Shown piece by piece: positions 38,630 through 43,118 of a DNA stretch of 64,000 nucleotides. The stretch's first letter is position 1; each line of letters starts with the position of its first letter. Origin of the DNA: Bifidobacterium pseudolongum subsp. globosum. Lineage in GTDB: Bacteria > Actinomycetota > Actinomycetes > Actinomycetales > Bifidobacteriaceae. The DNA lies in contig NZ_JGZG01000005.1 in NCBI RefSeq assembly GCF_000741295.1, forward strand, positions 372,001 to 436,000. The letters are read 5' to 3'. The position numbers and the translations under genes are program-made. The notes under the pieces are model-generated. The model saw nothing but the letters and a program-made list of their open reading frames with translations. It was not told the DNA's origin and searched no databases.

Positions 38630-39793
38630 TCAGTCGTTGTGCAGCGTTTCGAGGAACGCGTCGATGCGTGCACACGCCTCTTTGATGTCTTCCATACTCG
38701 TCGCATAGGATATGCGCACAAAGCCCTCGCCGGACTCACCGAACGCGGTGCCCGGCACAATCGCGACCTTCTGCTCTTCGAGCAGCCGTACGCAGAATTC
38801 GTCGGATGACAACCCTGATGACGTGATGTTCGCGAACACATAGAATGTGCCGTTCGGCACATTGGTCGTCAATCCCATGCGGTTCAGGCGTGCGCAGATG
38901 AGGTTGCGGCGCGCCTCGTATTCCTTGCACATGCCCGCGATGTCCGGCATGCCATGCTCGAGTGCCTCAATCGCCGCGTATTGCGCTGCGGTGGGCGCTG
39001 ACATGATGACGAACTGGTGCACCTTCGTCAGCTGTCCGCTCAACTCAGGATTGCTCAACAGGTAGCCAAGGCGCCAACCGGTCATGGCGAATGCCTTCGA
39101 GAAGCCATTGATCACGAGCACTTGGTCTCGAATCTCGTCGAAGCTTGCAGGAGAGCAGAACTCCCCTGCGAACACGAGTTCGGAATAGATCTCGTCGGAG
39201 ATGATGTAGATGCCGGATTCCTTGAGGATCGGGACCAATCGGGCATAGTCCTCACGGGTCATCACGCCCCCGGTCGGATTCGATGGGAAGTTGACGATGA
39301 TCGCTTTCGTCTTCTCGGTGATCGCACGCTCGAGGTCTTCGGGCAGGAGCTTAAAATCGTGCTCCTGGGTCAGCGGAATGCGCACTGGCACGCCGCCGGC
39401 CATGAGGATCGCGGGCTCGTAGGCCACATAGTTCGGGTCGAGCACAATCACTTCGTCGCCGGGGTTGATCAGCGTGCGGCAGCACAGGTCGACGGCTTCC
39501 GAGCCACCCACGGTGACAAGGATCTCCGAGTCGGGGTCATACGCGATGCCGTAGCGGTTGCGGTAATAGTTCGCGATCTGCCTGCGCAACGCGATCAGGC
39601 CACGGTTCGCCGTGTAGTGGGTGTGCCCGTCTTCGAATGATTCCACCGCTTTCGCGCTGATATGCCATGGGGTGTCGAAATCCGGCTCGCCGACGCCGAG
39701 GGAGATGACGCCCTCCATCGCGTTCGCCAGATCGAAGTATTTGCGGATGCCACTGGGCTTGAGGTGTTCGATGGTCCGGTTGATGGATTTCAT
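38630..39793 (-). CDS. PLP-dependent class I/II aminotransferase
   Basis: 387 aa fold-type I aminotransferase. The PLP lysine is in NGFSKAFAMTGWRLGYL; NFPSNPTGG and DEIYSELVF bind the cofactor ring. It resembles PatA/aspartate-type subfamily members; substrate not determinable by eye. ATG 39793 (MKSINRTIEHL) overlaps the TGA of the Lrp gene as TGATG, so translation is coupled and the regulator likely senses the amino acid involved. Confidence 0.9.
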   Translation of the reverse strand: MKSINRTIEHLKPSGIRKYFDLANAMEGVISLGVGEPDFDTPWHISAKAVESFEDGHTHYTANRGLIALRRQIANYYRNRYGIAYDPDSEILVTVGGSEAVDLCCRTLINPGDEVIVLDPNYVAYEPAILMAGGVPVRIPLTQEHDFKLLPEDLERAITEKTKAIIVNFPSNPTGGVMTREDYARLVPILKESGIYIISDEIYSELVFAGEFCSPASFDEIRDQVLVINGFSKAFAMTGWRLGYLLSNPELSGQLTKVHQFVIMSAPTAAQYAAIEALEHGMPDIAGMCKEYEARRNLICARLNRMGLTTNVPNGTFYVFANITSSGLSSDEFCVRLLEEQKVAIVPGTAFGESGEGFVRISYATSMEDIKEACARIDAFLETLHND

Positions 39794-40311
39794 CAGTAGC
39801 TCACCACCAATCGTCCCTCGCTGTTGGCCGTGCGGGCCGCGCCGGTGAGCACGCCGGACTGCTTGTACTGCTTGAGCACGAACAGGGTCTTCGTGCTCTG
39901 CACATGCTCCATGACGGCGATGCGGTCGGCCACGAACTGGCACACCTCGAACATCGTGCGCCCTTGGACAAGGCAGATGAAGTCGTTGTCGCCGGTGATC
40001 AGATACAGCGAATCGATCTCCGGGTATTTCGCGAGTAGGGCCGCGGTGTGGTCGTAACCCTGGTCCTTCATCGGCGAGACATCCACTTCGATGAACGCCA
40101 TGATGCGCTCGTCGCGCAGCACTTTGTTGTAGTTGATCACCGTATGGTAGCCGCAGATGATCTTCTGGTCCTCCATGCGGCGTACGGCGTGTGCGACATC
40201 CTTGGCGTCTTCATTGAGAATGTCGGCGAGGTCCTGCGCGTTGAGCCGGGCGTCGTTCTCGAGCAGTTCGAGAATCGCCTGGTCCTGGCCGCTGATACTC
40301 GGTTCCGTCAT
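39793..40311 (-). CDS. Lrp/AsnC family regulator
   Basis: 172 aa. N-terminal helix-turn-helix (DQAILELLENDARLNAQDLADILN) and C-terminal RAM ligand-binding domain (MAFIEVDVSP...SLYLITGDNDFICLVQGRT). Likely regulates the coupled aminotransferase in response to an amino acid. It lies 46 bp downstream of the XRE-aminotransferase fusion gene, in the same direction. Confidence 0.92.
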   Translation of the reverse strand: MTEPSISGQDQAILELLENDARLNAQDLADILNEDAKDVAHAVRRMEDQKIICGYHTVINYNKVLRDERIMAFIEVDVSPMKDQGYDHTAALLAKYPEIDSLYLITGDNDFICLVQGRTMFEVCQFVADRIAVMEHVQSTKTLFVLKQYKQSGVLTGAARTANSEGRLVVSY

Positions 40312-40357: not shown

Positions 40358-42067
40358 CTATTGACGATAATAACTGAAGAAATTCGTCATCTTCTCCACC
40401 GCGCCCTTGAGCACTTCGACACGCGGCAGATAGACGACGCGGAAGTGGTCCGGATCCTTCCAATTGAAACCGGTGCCTTGCACAATGAGCAGCTTTTCGT
40501 CGTGCAGCAGGTCGAGGGCGAACTGTTCGTCGTTGTGGATGTTGAACTTCTTCGTGTTGATCTTCGGGAAGATATAGAACGCGGCCTTTGGCTTGACGGC
40601 GGAGATGCCGTCGATGGCGTTGAGCGCCTCATAGATGTATTCGCGCTGCTCGTAGAGGCGGCCGCCGGGCACCAGATAATCATTGACGCTCTGGTGTCCG
40701 CCGAGCGCGGTCTGCACGATGGATTGCGCGGGCACGTTTGAACAGATGCGCATATTCGTGAGCATGTCGATGCCCTCGATGTAGTCCTTCGCGATCGCCT
40801 TGTTGCCGGAGAGGATCATCCAACCGATGCGGTAGCCCGCGATCATGTGCGATTTGGACAGTCCGCTGTAGGTGACGCAGAACAGGTCCGGGGCGAGCGA
40901 AGCGATCGATGTGTGTTCAAGGCCGTCCATGACAAGCCGGTCGTAGATCTCGTCGGAGAAGATCATCAGCTGGTGTTCGCGTGCCAGGCTGACGATCTGT
41001 TCAAGGACCTCCTTCGGGTAGAGCGCGCCGGTGGGATTGTTGGGGTTGATGATGACGATCGCCTTGGTGCGGTCGGTGATCTTCGCGCGCATGTCGTCGA
41101 TGTCCGGGTACCACTCCGATTGCTCATCGCACACATAATGCACCGGCTTGCCGCCCGCCAGCGTGACGCATGCGGTCCACAGCGGGTAGTCCGGTGCGGG
41201 CAGCAACACCTCGTCACCGTTGTCGAGCAACGCGCTCATGCTCAGATTGATCAGTTCACTCACGCCGTTGCCCGTGTAGATGTCTTCGACGCCGACGTTC
41301 GGCAGATGCTTGAGCTGCGCGTACTGCATGATCGCTTTGCGGGCGGAGAACAGGCCCTTCGACGCCGAATACCCCTCGGTATCCGTGAGCTGTTGCGCCA
41401 TGTCATACACGACCTCATCCGGTGTGCGGAAGCCGAATGGTGCGGGGTTGCCGATGTTGAGCTTCATGACGTGCATGCCGGCCGCTTCCATGCGCGCCGC
41501 CTCGTTGACGACCGGGCCGCGGACATCATAGAGCACGTTGTCGAGCTTATGCGATTTGGTGAACGTCCTCCGTGTGTGCGCGGTGGTGGAACCGGGGGTC
41601 ACGGTTGCGGGCACATCGGTGAATGAAGGGTCCTGTACATTGGCGTCGAATTGTGGTTCCATCCTGTGCTCCTGTTCCATATGTGCCTGATAGTGTGATG
41701 GGGTGTCTGCCACTGATTGTTCAAAGTTGCGGGGTGCATTCTGTCGAACATGTGGAGTGGTGTTCAAACTGGATGCATTGAACATTGACGGTGAATGTTC
41801 AATATCTGTCTGTATATCAGATAACGTGGCTGGATGGTCGTCGAAGGGCACGTCCTCCCCGGCAAGCCATCTCGCGTCCACGTTGAGCACAGCCGCCAGA
41901 AAATGTTCTATGTCAGGGCGGGGTTTGGTCTTGCCGTGTACATACTGGCTGATGTGGCTGCGTCCCAGCTTGATGCCGTGGGCATGTGCGGCCTTGACGA
42001 AGTCGCTTTGCCGTATGTTGCGCAGATCCATTGCTTGGTTGAGGCGTTGCGTGAATCGATCGGTCAC
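40358..42067 (-). CDS. XRE-type helix-turn-helix fused to an AlaA-like aminotransferase
   Basis: 569 aa with three parts. Residues 1-70 form a Cro/C1-type helix-turn-helix (RQSDFVKAAHAHGIKLGRSHISQYVHGKTKPRP, followed by VDARWLAG). Residues about 75-165 are a low-complexity polar linker. Residues about 170-569 are a fold-type I aminotransferase close to AlaA/YfdZ alanine transaminases: KLNIGNPAPFGF, IINPNNPTGA, PLP lysine in TYSGLSKSHMIAGYRIGW. This is not MocR, whose DNA-binding domain is GntR-type. Start is a GTG at 42067 with GAGGGGAG upstream, which gives a complete HTH. The promoter region and linker-coding DNA carry many TGTTCAA motifs, suggesting autoregulation by its own HTH, possibly responsive to PLP or amino-acid state. 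Confidence 0.9.
   Translation of the reverse strand: MTDRFTQRLNQAMDLRNIRQSDFVKAAHAHGIKLGRSHISQYVHGKTKPRPDIEHFLAAVLNVDARWLAGEDVPFDDHPATLSDIQTDIEHSPSMFNASSLNTTPHVRQNAPRNFEQSVADTPSHYQAHMEQEHRMEPQFDANVQDPSFTDVPATVTPGSTTAHTRRTFTKSHKLDNVLYDVRGPVVNEAARMEAAGMHVMKLNIGNPAPFGFRTPDEVVYDMAQQLTDTEGYSASKGLFSARKAIMQYAQLKHLPNVGVEDIYTGNGVSELINLSMSALLDNGDEVLLPAPDYPLWTACVTLAGGKPVHYVCDEQSEWYPDIDDMRAKITDRTKAIVIINPNNPTGALYPKEVLEQIVSLAREHQLMIFSDEIYDRLVMDGLEHTSIASLAPDLFCVTYSGLSKSHMIAGYRIGWMILSGNKAIAKDYIEGIDMLTNMRICSNVPAQSIVQTALGGHQSVNDYLVPGGRLYEQREYIYEALNAIDGISAVKPKAAFYIFPKINTKKFNIHNDEQFALDLLHDEKLLIVQGTGFNWKDPDHFRVVYLPRVEVLKGAVEKMTNFFSYYRQ
41777..41803. promoter_or_regulatory. Intragenic inverted repeat of the TGTTCAA family
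   Basis: ATTGAACAT-N9-ATGTTCAAT, perfect 9-bp arms, inside the fusion gene where it encodes linker residues around EHSPSMFN. Confidence 0.65.
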
Positions 42068-42111
42068 TGCCGCTCCCCTCTCGTGTGTTCAGTGCAACAA
42101 CAATAGTGCCG

Positions 42112-42117
42112 AGTATA
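42112..42117 (-). promoter_or_regulatory. Candidate -10 of the XRE-aminotransferase gene
   Basis: TATACT on the minus strand, 45 bp before the GTG. A TTGAACA heptamer (42125-42131) falls in the spacer just upstream, so an occupied site would block RNA polymerase. No clear -35. Confidence 0.5.
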
Positions 42118-42164
42118 CCACGCGTTGAACATACCATGCAGGCGGTGGTGTGCATATTGATTAT

Positions 42165-42200
42165 GTATTGAACATATATGGATGACTATATGTTCAATAC
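42165..42200. promoter_or_regulatory. Perfect 14-bp inverted-repeat operator candidate
   Basis: Arms GTATTGAACATATA (42165-42178) and its exact complement (42187-42200), 8-nt spacer. It lies about 50-85 bp upstream of the -10. This is the strongest single operator candidate for the XRE domain of the downstream gene. Confidence 0.7.
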
Positions 42201-42235
42201 TGTATGTTCAATATAATGGTAGAAAGGTTCAGTGC

Positions 42236-42273
42236 GGTCCCCGAATTGTTCAACGCTGAACACTTCGGGGACC
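42236..42273. terminator. Long hairpin after the HAD gene containing nested motif halves
   Basis: Outer stem GGTCCCCGAA/TTCGGGGACC encloses TGTTCA-ACGC-TGAACA, giving a 16-bp stem with one mismatch and a 4-nt loop. It lies 18 bp past the HAD stop and should end that transcript before the fusion-gene promoter. Confidence 0.65.
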
Positions 42274-42290
42274 ACATACTGAAGTTCAAT

Positions 42291-43118
42291 TTACAACATG
42301 TTGTGTTCAAGCCATTGCGCCACGCCGTCATCGTTGTTCGACGGGCACACTTCATCGGCGATGTGGAGCACGGCTGGATTGGCATTGGCCACAGCCACGC
42401 CGGTGCCGCTGAGGTTCATCATGCCGATATCGACCATGTCATCGCCGAATGCGGTGGCCTGTTGCACATCCATCCCCCACTGGTCGCATAGGGTTTGCAC
42501 CGCATCCTTTTTGTTGGCATGTGGCGCCATGAGCATCCACAGCCGTCCTTCCGACACATGCACGGCGAAGTCATCCGGGATGAGCTCGTGCAACAGCTCG
42601 GTCTGTTCGGCTCTCGGGAAGATGATGATCTTGTCGGCTATGCCGTGAGGCACGTCACGGAAATCAGTGTACTGCCATGTTTGGGTTGTCCAATACCGTG
42701 ACACGTCGAAGTTCGTGTATCGTATGTCATCCATGACAATGCCGACCTCCAGGTCGGGCATGATGCTCAGCATCGCGCGGCACACTTGGCAGGCGCGCTG
42801 CGAGTCGAATCCGTTTTTGACAAGGCTGCCCGGTGACGATGGCTTGTGTCCGGTGAGTGATGCGTAGTCGGATTGTGAGGGATCGAAATCAATCAGTGCG
42901 CCGTTGAGATAGATGCATGCGTCGGCGTGCAGCGCTTGCACGATGGACAGACCGGTGCTCACCGGACGTGCCGTAGCGACGACGACAGGAATTCCCCGGC
43001 TGCGTACAGCGTGCACCGTCTCGATTGTGTGTGCCGAGAGGGCGCGGTCTTCGAAGCGTTCGGCGTCGTGGAGCAGTGTGCCGTCGAGGTCGGCGATGAC
43101 GAATGGTGTGTGAGGCAT
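42291..43118 (-). CDS. HAD-superfamily hydrolase, Cof type
   Basis: 275 aa. Motif I DLDGTLL (nucleophile Asp at residue 10), motif II region VVVATARP, motif III Lys in NKKDAVQTLC, motif IV GDDMVDIGMM. The large cap between motifs marks the Cof/YidA type that dephosphorylates sugar phosphates or PLP. Substrate unknown; a PLP-phosphatase role next to PLP enzymes is possible but unproven. Confidence 0.88.
   Translation of the reverse strand: MPHTPFVIADLDGTLLHDAERFEDRALSAHTIETVHAVRSRGIPVVVATARPVSTGLSIVQALHADACIYLNGALIDFDPSQSDYASLTGHKPSSPGSLVKNGFDSQRACQVCRAMLSIMPDLEVGIVMDDIRYTNFDVSRYWTTQTWQYTDFRDVPHGIADKIIIFPRAEQTELLHELIPDDFAVHVSEGRLWMLMAPHANKKDAVQTLCDQWGMDVQQATAFGDDMVDIGMMNLSGTGVAVANANPAVLHIADEVCPSNNDDGVAQWLEHNML

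Follow-up and report, generated by a model that had tools for sequence, protein, structure and literature searches.

A half-site array at the XRE-AlaA fusion gene of Bifidobacterium pseudolongum as the probable operator of its own gene

The stretch of DNA analyzed here (64,000 nucleotides from Bifidobacterium pseudolongum subsp. globosum, contig NZ_JGZG01000005.1, positions 372,001 to 436,000; "the window") contains a gene, here called alaA, that codes for a fusion of an XRE-type helix-turn-helix domain to an AlaA-type aminotransferase (XRE-AlaA). A dense array of TGTTCAA/TTGAACA heptamers covers the upstream region and part of the coding sequence. An earlier note, made from the sequence alone, had taken this array for a cooperative autoregulatory operator through which the enzyme, sensing its own substrate or PLP, would control its gene. 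The features of the locus, with the basis of each assignment, are as follows (window coordinates; AF2, AlphaFold2; pLDDT, predicted local distance difference test).

40358..42067, minus: XRE-AlaA fusion gene, 569 residues, GTG start (open reading frame; PF00155; best PDB match E. coli AlaA 4cvq, 1e-169)
40361..41566, minus: AlaA-type class I aminotransferase domain (4cvq match; invariant active-site residues)
41573..41842, minus: variable linker, about residues 76-165, predicted to be disordered, with four coding heptamers (pLDDT; synonymous shuffles)
41718..41724, plus: half-site TGTTCAA, coding linker (motif scan)
41761..41767, plus: half-site TGTTCAA, coding linker (motif scan)
41777..41803, no strand: inverted half-site pair 41778-41784 / 41796-41802, coding linker (motif and repeat scans)
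41843..42067, minus: N-terminal XRE/CI-type helix-turn-helix domain, residues 1-75 (phmmer, AF2, Foldseek)
42112..42117, minus: TATACT, candidate -10 box for alaA (sequence reading)
42125..42131, minus: half-site, 7 bases upstream of the candidate -10 box (motif scan, sequence reading)
42165..42200, no strand: perfect inverted repeat with half-sites 42168-42174 and 42191-42197 (motif and repeat scans)
42205..42211, plus: half-site TGTTCAA (motif scan)
42247..42253, plus: half-site TGTTCAA inside inverted repeat 42233-42276 (motif and repeat scans)
42284..42289, plus: additional half-site, hexamer GTTCAA (hexamer criterion)
42304..42310, plus: half-site TGTTCAA, 3' end of the HAD gene (motif scan, open reading frame list)

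That the gene joins an XRE helix-turn-helix to an aminotransferase, as had been proposed, is confirmed by phmmer, by the predicted fold, by PF00155 (4.6e-52) and by 4cvq. The closest solved relative of the head is the N-terminal domain of the CI repressor from the lactococcal phage TP901-1, one of the phages with a CI/Mor switch (phmmer, residues 6-75, E 3e-8). When the head was modelled alone with AF2 (pLDDT 90.8), the top four PDB chains retrieved by Foldseek were all TP901-1 CI N-terminal domains (template modelling score 0.73-0.80, by query length), one of them complexed with an operator half-site. Residues 36-43 form the third helix, which is taken as the recognition helix. The linker (residues 79-164) has a pLDDT below 50 and is predicted to be disordered. 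Residues 168-569 (402 residues) are closely related to E. coli AlaA (4cvq; 569 bits, about 60% identity) and stand where CI would have its C-terminal dimerization/oligomerization domain, which is absent. Lys405, Asn344, Asp372, Tyr375 and Arg543, which we take to be the catalytic residues of class I aminotransferases, are invariant in 17 sequences. The best NCBIfam match (NF006230, alanine aminotransferase) scores 367 bits, below its curated cut-off of 534, so that only 4cvq points to alanine as the substrate. No GntR family is found among the three Pfam matches and the 25 best of 69 NCBIfam matches. In the AF2 model of the full-length protein the aminotransferase part is unusable (mean pLDDT 60.2, root-mean-square deviation about 16 to AlaA).

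Ten exact heptamers lie within 593 bp (41718-42310), at the positions that the earlier note had given, four of them in the coding linker and six outside the gene; the outermost (42304-42310) is inside the final codons of the adjoining HAD gene. The density is far above chance, as had been claimed: 2000 dinucleotide shuffles of the 593 bp contain on average 0.15 heptamers and never more than 3, and no other heptamer of the window is as dense, the next having 6 copies in an equal span. What is conserved is the hexamer TTGAAC/GTTCAA; an A in the seventh position is specific to the clade of the window's locus. Spacings of 43, 43 and 42 bp (41718/41761, 42125/42168, 42205/42247) had been read as close to four helical turns. 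These distances are real; they are, however, just one among several helical-turn multiples (about 11, 20-21, 31 and 41-43 bp). A strong inverted repeat (42233-42276) between the HAD gene and alaA has half-sites in its middle, and one stretch of DNA may here act as both hairpin and operator.

Absence of the motif upstream of orthologues had been set beforehand as a test that could refute the operator, and the motif was found at every fused locus examined. The 70 Bifidobacterium orthologues were reduced to 58 non-redundant upstream regions for hexamer ranking. Within 200 bp upstream, GTTCAA/TTGAAC is the commonest hexamer (287 copies, present in 58/58), whereas hexamers matched in composition average 9.3 copies. 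Its density is highest within 100 bp 5' of the gene (34-40 per kb versus 0.7-0.8 for the control). All 89 distinct fused Bifidobacteriaceae loci carry 2-9 half-sites per 200 bp upstream. Among the best 80 of 190 head relatives, 4 are from Bifidobacterium; the remaining 76, which by their titles belong for the most part to Lachnospiraceae, make up a Bacillota set. Half-sites are found within 200 bp upstream in 76/76 of these loci (1-6 copies each, 295 in total), the hexamer again ranking first; the upstream sequence is shorter than 100 bp at two loci. A simple pattern detects an in-frame fusion in 74 of the 76. Of the two left, one is a truncated contig showing an aminotransferase start and one a variant that reads as fused.

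Unfused AlaA genes are nearly devoid of the motif (48/50 without a half-site, 2/50 with one). This set consists of 26 actinomycete controls (25 without, one with a single half-site; two are Bifidobacteriaceae and two loci have a broken or unclear frame) and of 24 unfused loci among 28 from a Clostridia search (23 without, one with a single half-site). The four fused loci from that same search have 2-5 half-sites each. In the actinomycete search, 64 genomes were matched (that of the window included), and the motif was checked at 24 loci of the others. Seven duplicate genomes (L098-L100, L102-L105; L and G numbers designate loci and genomes) were left out of the first tree, of the coding-site, phasing, promoter and co-variation counts, and of the recount. 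Half-sites also occur within 250 bp 3' of the alaA stop codon at 12/70 Bifidobacterium loci, among them L008, which has five downstream of alaA, four of them at steps of 20-21 bp.

The kinship of the head points to the protein that may bind the array. Statements which carry a PMC number refer to excerpts of the respective articles. TP901-1 CI has a half-site consensus AGTTCAYR (PMC8516035), which compares with (A)GTTCAA at the XRE-AlaA genes; its operator OL is GTTCATGAAACGTGAACT, and it contains a flexible linker (PMC4941734). Binding by the CI of phage 13, a related protein, was severely weakened when C was changed to G in the half-sites (PMC8516035). AGTTCA ranks third among the upstream hexamers in Bifidobacterium and second in Bacillota. 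At eight phage loci with relatives of the head, the 410 bp next to the repressor gene contain 36 copies of GTTCAA/TTGAAC, whereas hexamers matched in composition average 2.7, and at least one TTGAAC is present at 15 of the 17 phage loci examined. The base that follows TTGAAC co-varies with residue 36, with which the third helix begins. Where this residue is Arg (9 loci, 52 sites), 83% of the sites read TTGAACA; where it is Lys, the mean share of TTGAACA per locus is 14% for the 79 loci from Bifidobacteriaceae and 2% for the 76 from Bacillota. Thus, K36R goes with TTGAACT to TTGAACA. R36 has at least two origins, one in the window's clade and one at L128, a locus that falls elsewhere in the trees and has A at 2/3 sites. 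Phage half-site, phage loci and co-variation all point to the fused head as the protein that binds the array.

Another regulator might occupy the array instead, the fused head having a different role. One candidate is the AsnC/Lrp-type protein encoded at 39793-40311, since its gene is directly downstream of alaA in the window's clade, and since Lrp proteins often control aminotransferase genes and favour phased arrays. However, only 7/70 Bifidobacterium loci, every one of them from the window's clade, and 0/76 Bacillota loci have this gene next to alaA (neighbourhoods of a median of 500 bp downstream in Bifidobacterium and about 3 kb in most Bacillota; rest of the genomes not searched). The motif tracks the fused head and not the Lrp-type gene, the half-site matches that of the head's own homolog, and the base after TTGAAC tracks the recognition helix of the head. 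We thus consider control by another regulator quite improbable.

The half-sites have a regular geometry. Same-direction distances hold a phase of 10.25-10.5 bp. The phasing R is 0.228 for 38 dissimilar regions from Bifidobacteriaceae, where the null mean is 0.072 and 0/2000 are as high, and 0.48 for 27 dissimilar regions from Bacillota, where the null has a mean of 0.093 and a maximum of 0.29. The common steps in Bacillota are 20, 31, 41-43, 52 and 62-63 bp. In these 27 regions, 85 sites point in one direction and 6 in the opposite one. This asymmetry also argues against LexA (SOS) sites, which come to mind because GAAC-N4-GTTC resembles the Gram-positive SOS box. TTGAACN4GTTCAA does occur in some Bifidobacterium arrays; however, TTGAACN4-6GTTCAA is entirely lacking from the genome of the window, and an SOS function is the least credible of the alternatives, one that we regard as extremely improbable.

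Half-sites coincide with predicted promoter elements. In Bacillota, a half-site takes the position of a -35 element before a -10 box at 68/76 loci, 66 of them at exactly 17 bp. In Bifidobacteriaceae, a TAnnnT box lies 0-1 nt from a half-site at 63/88 loci (TAnnnT starts at 2.1% of positions), and a half-site is in the position of a canonical -35 element at 17/88 loci. We read these arrangements as occlusion of the predicted promoter. Alternatively, the array could activate or balance expression, either by recruiting polymerase or through a catalytic state that switches between both modes. GabR, an aminotransferase-like regulator, is a precedent, being both autorepressor and activator according to a reference title in PMC5320631. 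Nevertheless, positions at -35 or abutting a -10-like box are typical of repression, and partial autorepression is described for TP901-1 CI (PMC7250872), so that we consider an activating or balancing role improbable.

Across the whole genome of the window, the array is the one place with heptamer pairs at a distance of 5-35 bases. Triple direct repeats were found at 129 places in 53/101 Bifidobacterium genomes, 80 of them within 1 kb of alaA (in 34 genomes). The paired motif is present in 11/18 Lachnospiraceae/Bacillota genomes, at alaA in 11/11, with 3 single places elsewhere. Close inverted pairs were searched in 61 genomes. The picture is mainly that of an autoregulator with a single target. 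Away from alaA, a few relatives (G072, G021, G086) have a recurring repeat of about 24 bp that contains TTGAAC.

Half-sites in the coding sequence of the linker are in excess over expectation. Seven members of the window's clade (L002 was not counted, being a near copy of L001) have 45, compared to a mean of 5.7 (maximum 11) upon synonymous shuffling and of 2.1 (maximum 8) upon shuffling of codon order. The remaining loci analyzed have 39, compared to a mean of 6.4 (maximum 12) in synonymous shuffles. The analysis covered 73 loci; another 42 were skipped, including 16 fused ones (L012, L013, L062, L064-L070, L087, L127, L134-L137). The coding copies might be a by-product of linker selection or of tandem duplication, rather than part of an operator. 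In some relatives, such as L006, they are in a single frame at steps of 15-36 bp and encode repeated IEH/VEH, an in-frame repeat that may have originated by duplication. Moreover, L008 of the same clade has no half-site in its linker, and neither have 51 of the 73 loci analyzed. The excess over synonymous shuffles in both sets speaks against a by-product, as does the distribution of the sites in the window, which use several frames and run in both directions (within FEQ, LNT, MFN and IEH). We judge such an origin to be rather unlikely; it would apply to the coding copies alone and is compatible with an operator upstream.

The evolution of the fusion was reconstructed with a tree of 88 aminotransferase domains (a first tree left out L062, L106 and L108, which were without anchor). 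All fused proteins form one clade (support 100/86, recovered in 100% of 200 bootstrap trees), which sits as a whole within clostridial AlaA. The fused group from Lachnospiraceae is nested among Bifidobacteriaceae (97/89 and 96/86). The fusion thus probably arose once and then moved between two phyla. The nesting suggests, without proving it, a transfer from Bifidobacteriaceae to Lachnospiraceae. Since all fused proteins are one clade, the associations between head and motif are not independent tests.

Taken together, the array is best explained as the operator of its own gene, a locally expanded version of an operator that is conserved among the fused loci, with XRE-AlaA binding to it and repressing its own promoter. 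We assign this a probability of roughly 0.85. The motif conservation, the link to the head, the phasing, the promoter position and the residue/base co-variation were computed directly, and they strongly support an autoregulatory operator. Binding, repression rather than activation, and cooperativity via the dimer are what we infer from these. In the proposed mechanism, the phage CI-type helix-turn-helix at the end of a long flexible linker would read the half-sites, and dimerization of the aminotransferase would bring two heads to TTGAAC half-sites (TTGAACA in the window's clade). Several half-sites, mostly in phase on one helix face, would allow cooperative occupancy of the promoter. As the level of XRE-AlaA rises, the promoter would become occupied and transcription of the gene would be repressed. 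The position of the sites suggests this direction of regulation. Of the cooperative autoregulatory operator that had been proposed, the operator is upheld by sites at all fused orthologues, their near-absence from unfused ones, CI homology, co-variation, promoter position and phasing; its cooperativity is suggested only by the phasing, and the proposed sensing of substrate or PLP stays a conjecture.

Several observations weigh against this interpretation. TP901-1 uses inverted pairs, whereas the XRE-AlaA loci have mostly direct repeats. With a single origin, the 165 fused loci are not independent evidence for the link between head and motif. Two enterococcal phage relatives among the 17 phage loci lack any TTGAAC. 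The co-variation is based on two K-to-R changes, one of which is a single locus with 3 sites. It is mixed in phages, two related R36 phages having A at 3/3 and 2/4 sites, so that this phage lineage is suggestive only. In Bifidobacteriaceae, half-sites at a canonical -35 position are at background (19/289 sites or 6.6%, versus 8.0% of positions). Isolated hexamer pairs exist elsewhere in the genome of the window (16 direct and 2 inverted places), and 49 of the 129 triple-repeat places, in 29 genomes, are away from alaA.

Several enzymes are known to repress their own genes, such as PutA, NadR and BirA. They resemble XRE-AlaA in carrying their own DNA-binding domain, although folds and reactions are unrelated; a literature comparison with PutA gave no direct match. 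E. coli AlaA, about 60% identical over the aminotransferase part, is without a DNA-binding head. XRE-AlaA shares with TP901-1 CI the sequence and fold of the helix-turn-helix, the flexible linker, and, as proposed here, autorepression, which is partial for CI (PMC7250872). In contrast to CI, the C-terminus of XRE-AlaA is an aminotransferase and its gene is a chromosomal metabolic one. The architecture is also reminiscent of MocR, GabR and PdxR, which have a DNA-binding head, a flexible linker and a class I aminotransferase-like domain, and for which direct-repeat operators are common and autoregulation occurs (PMC5320631). However, the head of MocR/GabR is of GntR type and their aminotransferase-like domain is sensory (PMC5320631), whereas XRE-AlaA has an XRE/CI-type head and a close AlaA homolog with all expected catalytic residues. 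XRE-AlaA thus resembles MocR/GabR in its working and is not a member of that group. Searches of the open-licence literature, judged by titles and abstract openings, brought up no paper on such a fusion, motif or autoregulation.

If the interpretation is correct, XRE-AlaA uses a phage repressor head for a second design of an aminotransferase-linked regulator, independent of MocR/GabR. Such regulators would then be common among Bifidobacterium and Lachnospiraceae (e.g. Blautia, Coprococcus, Mediterraneibacter). It could serve as a test bed for the co-evolution of operator specificity and regulator (K36R with T-to-A), for selection at the DNA level inside a coding sequence, and for the joint spread of regulator and operator across phyla. 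A broader scenario is offered only tentatively, and we hold it to be somewhat doubtful. A phage repressor head would have been captured once, keeping its phage operator code, and the self-controlled gene would have crossed two gut phyla together with its operator. The pyridoxal/pyridoxamine phosphate or substrate state would set the pairing of the heads, so that alanine/nitrogen status tunes the gene. In one clade, the operator would have grown into the gene and reshaped the linker.

The head might also act on phage operators; however, no bifidobacterial phage with such a repressor was found, either in an organism tally (106 records, 8 labelled "Bacteriophage", 3 of which proved to be bacterial) or among viral contigs upon a single-protein query. 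Three records from a human-fecal phage collection encode XRE-AlaA (L138, L139 and L140; MT839198.1, MT839381.1 and MT838394.1). They look bacterial even though they are listed as phage; L138 resembles Bifidobacterium, and the other two are of other origin. In the window, the Lrp/AsnC-type regulator gene directly downstream of alaA is accompanied by a gene for a second class I aminotransferase (38630-39943), both on the minus strand.

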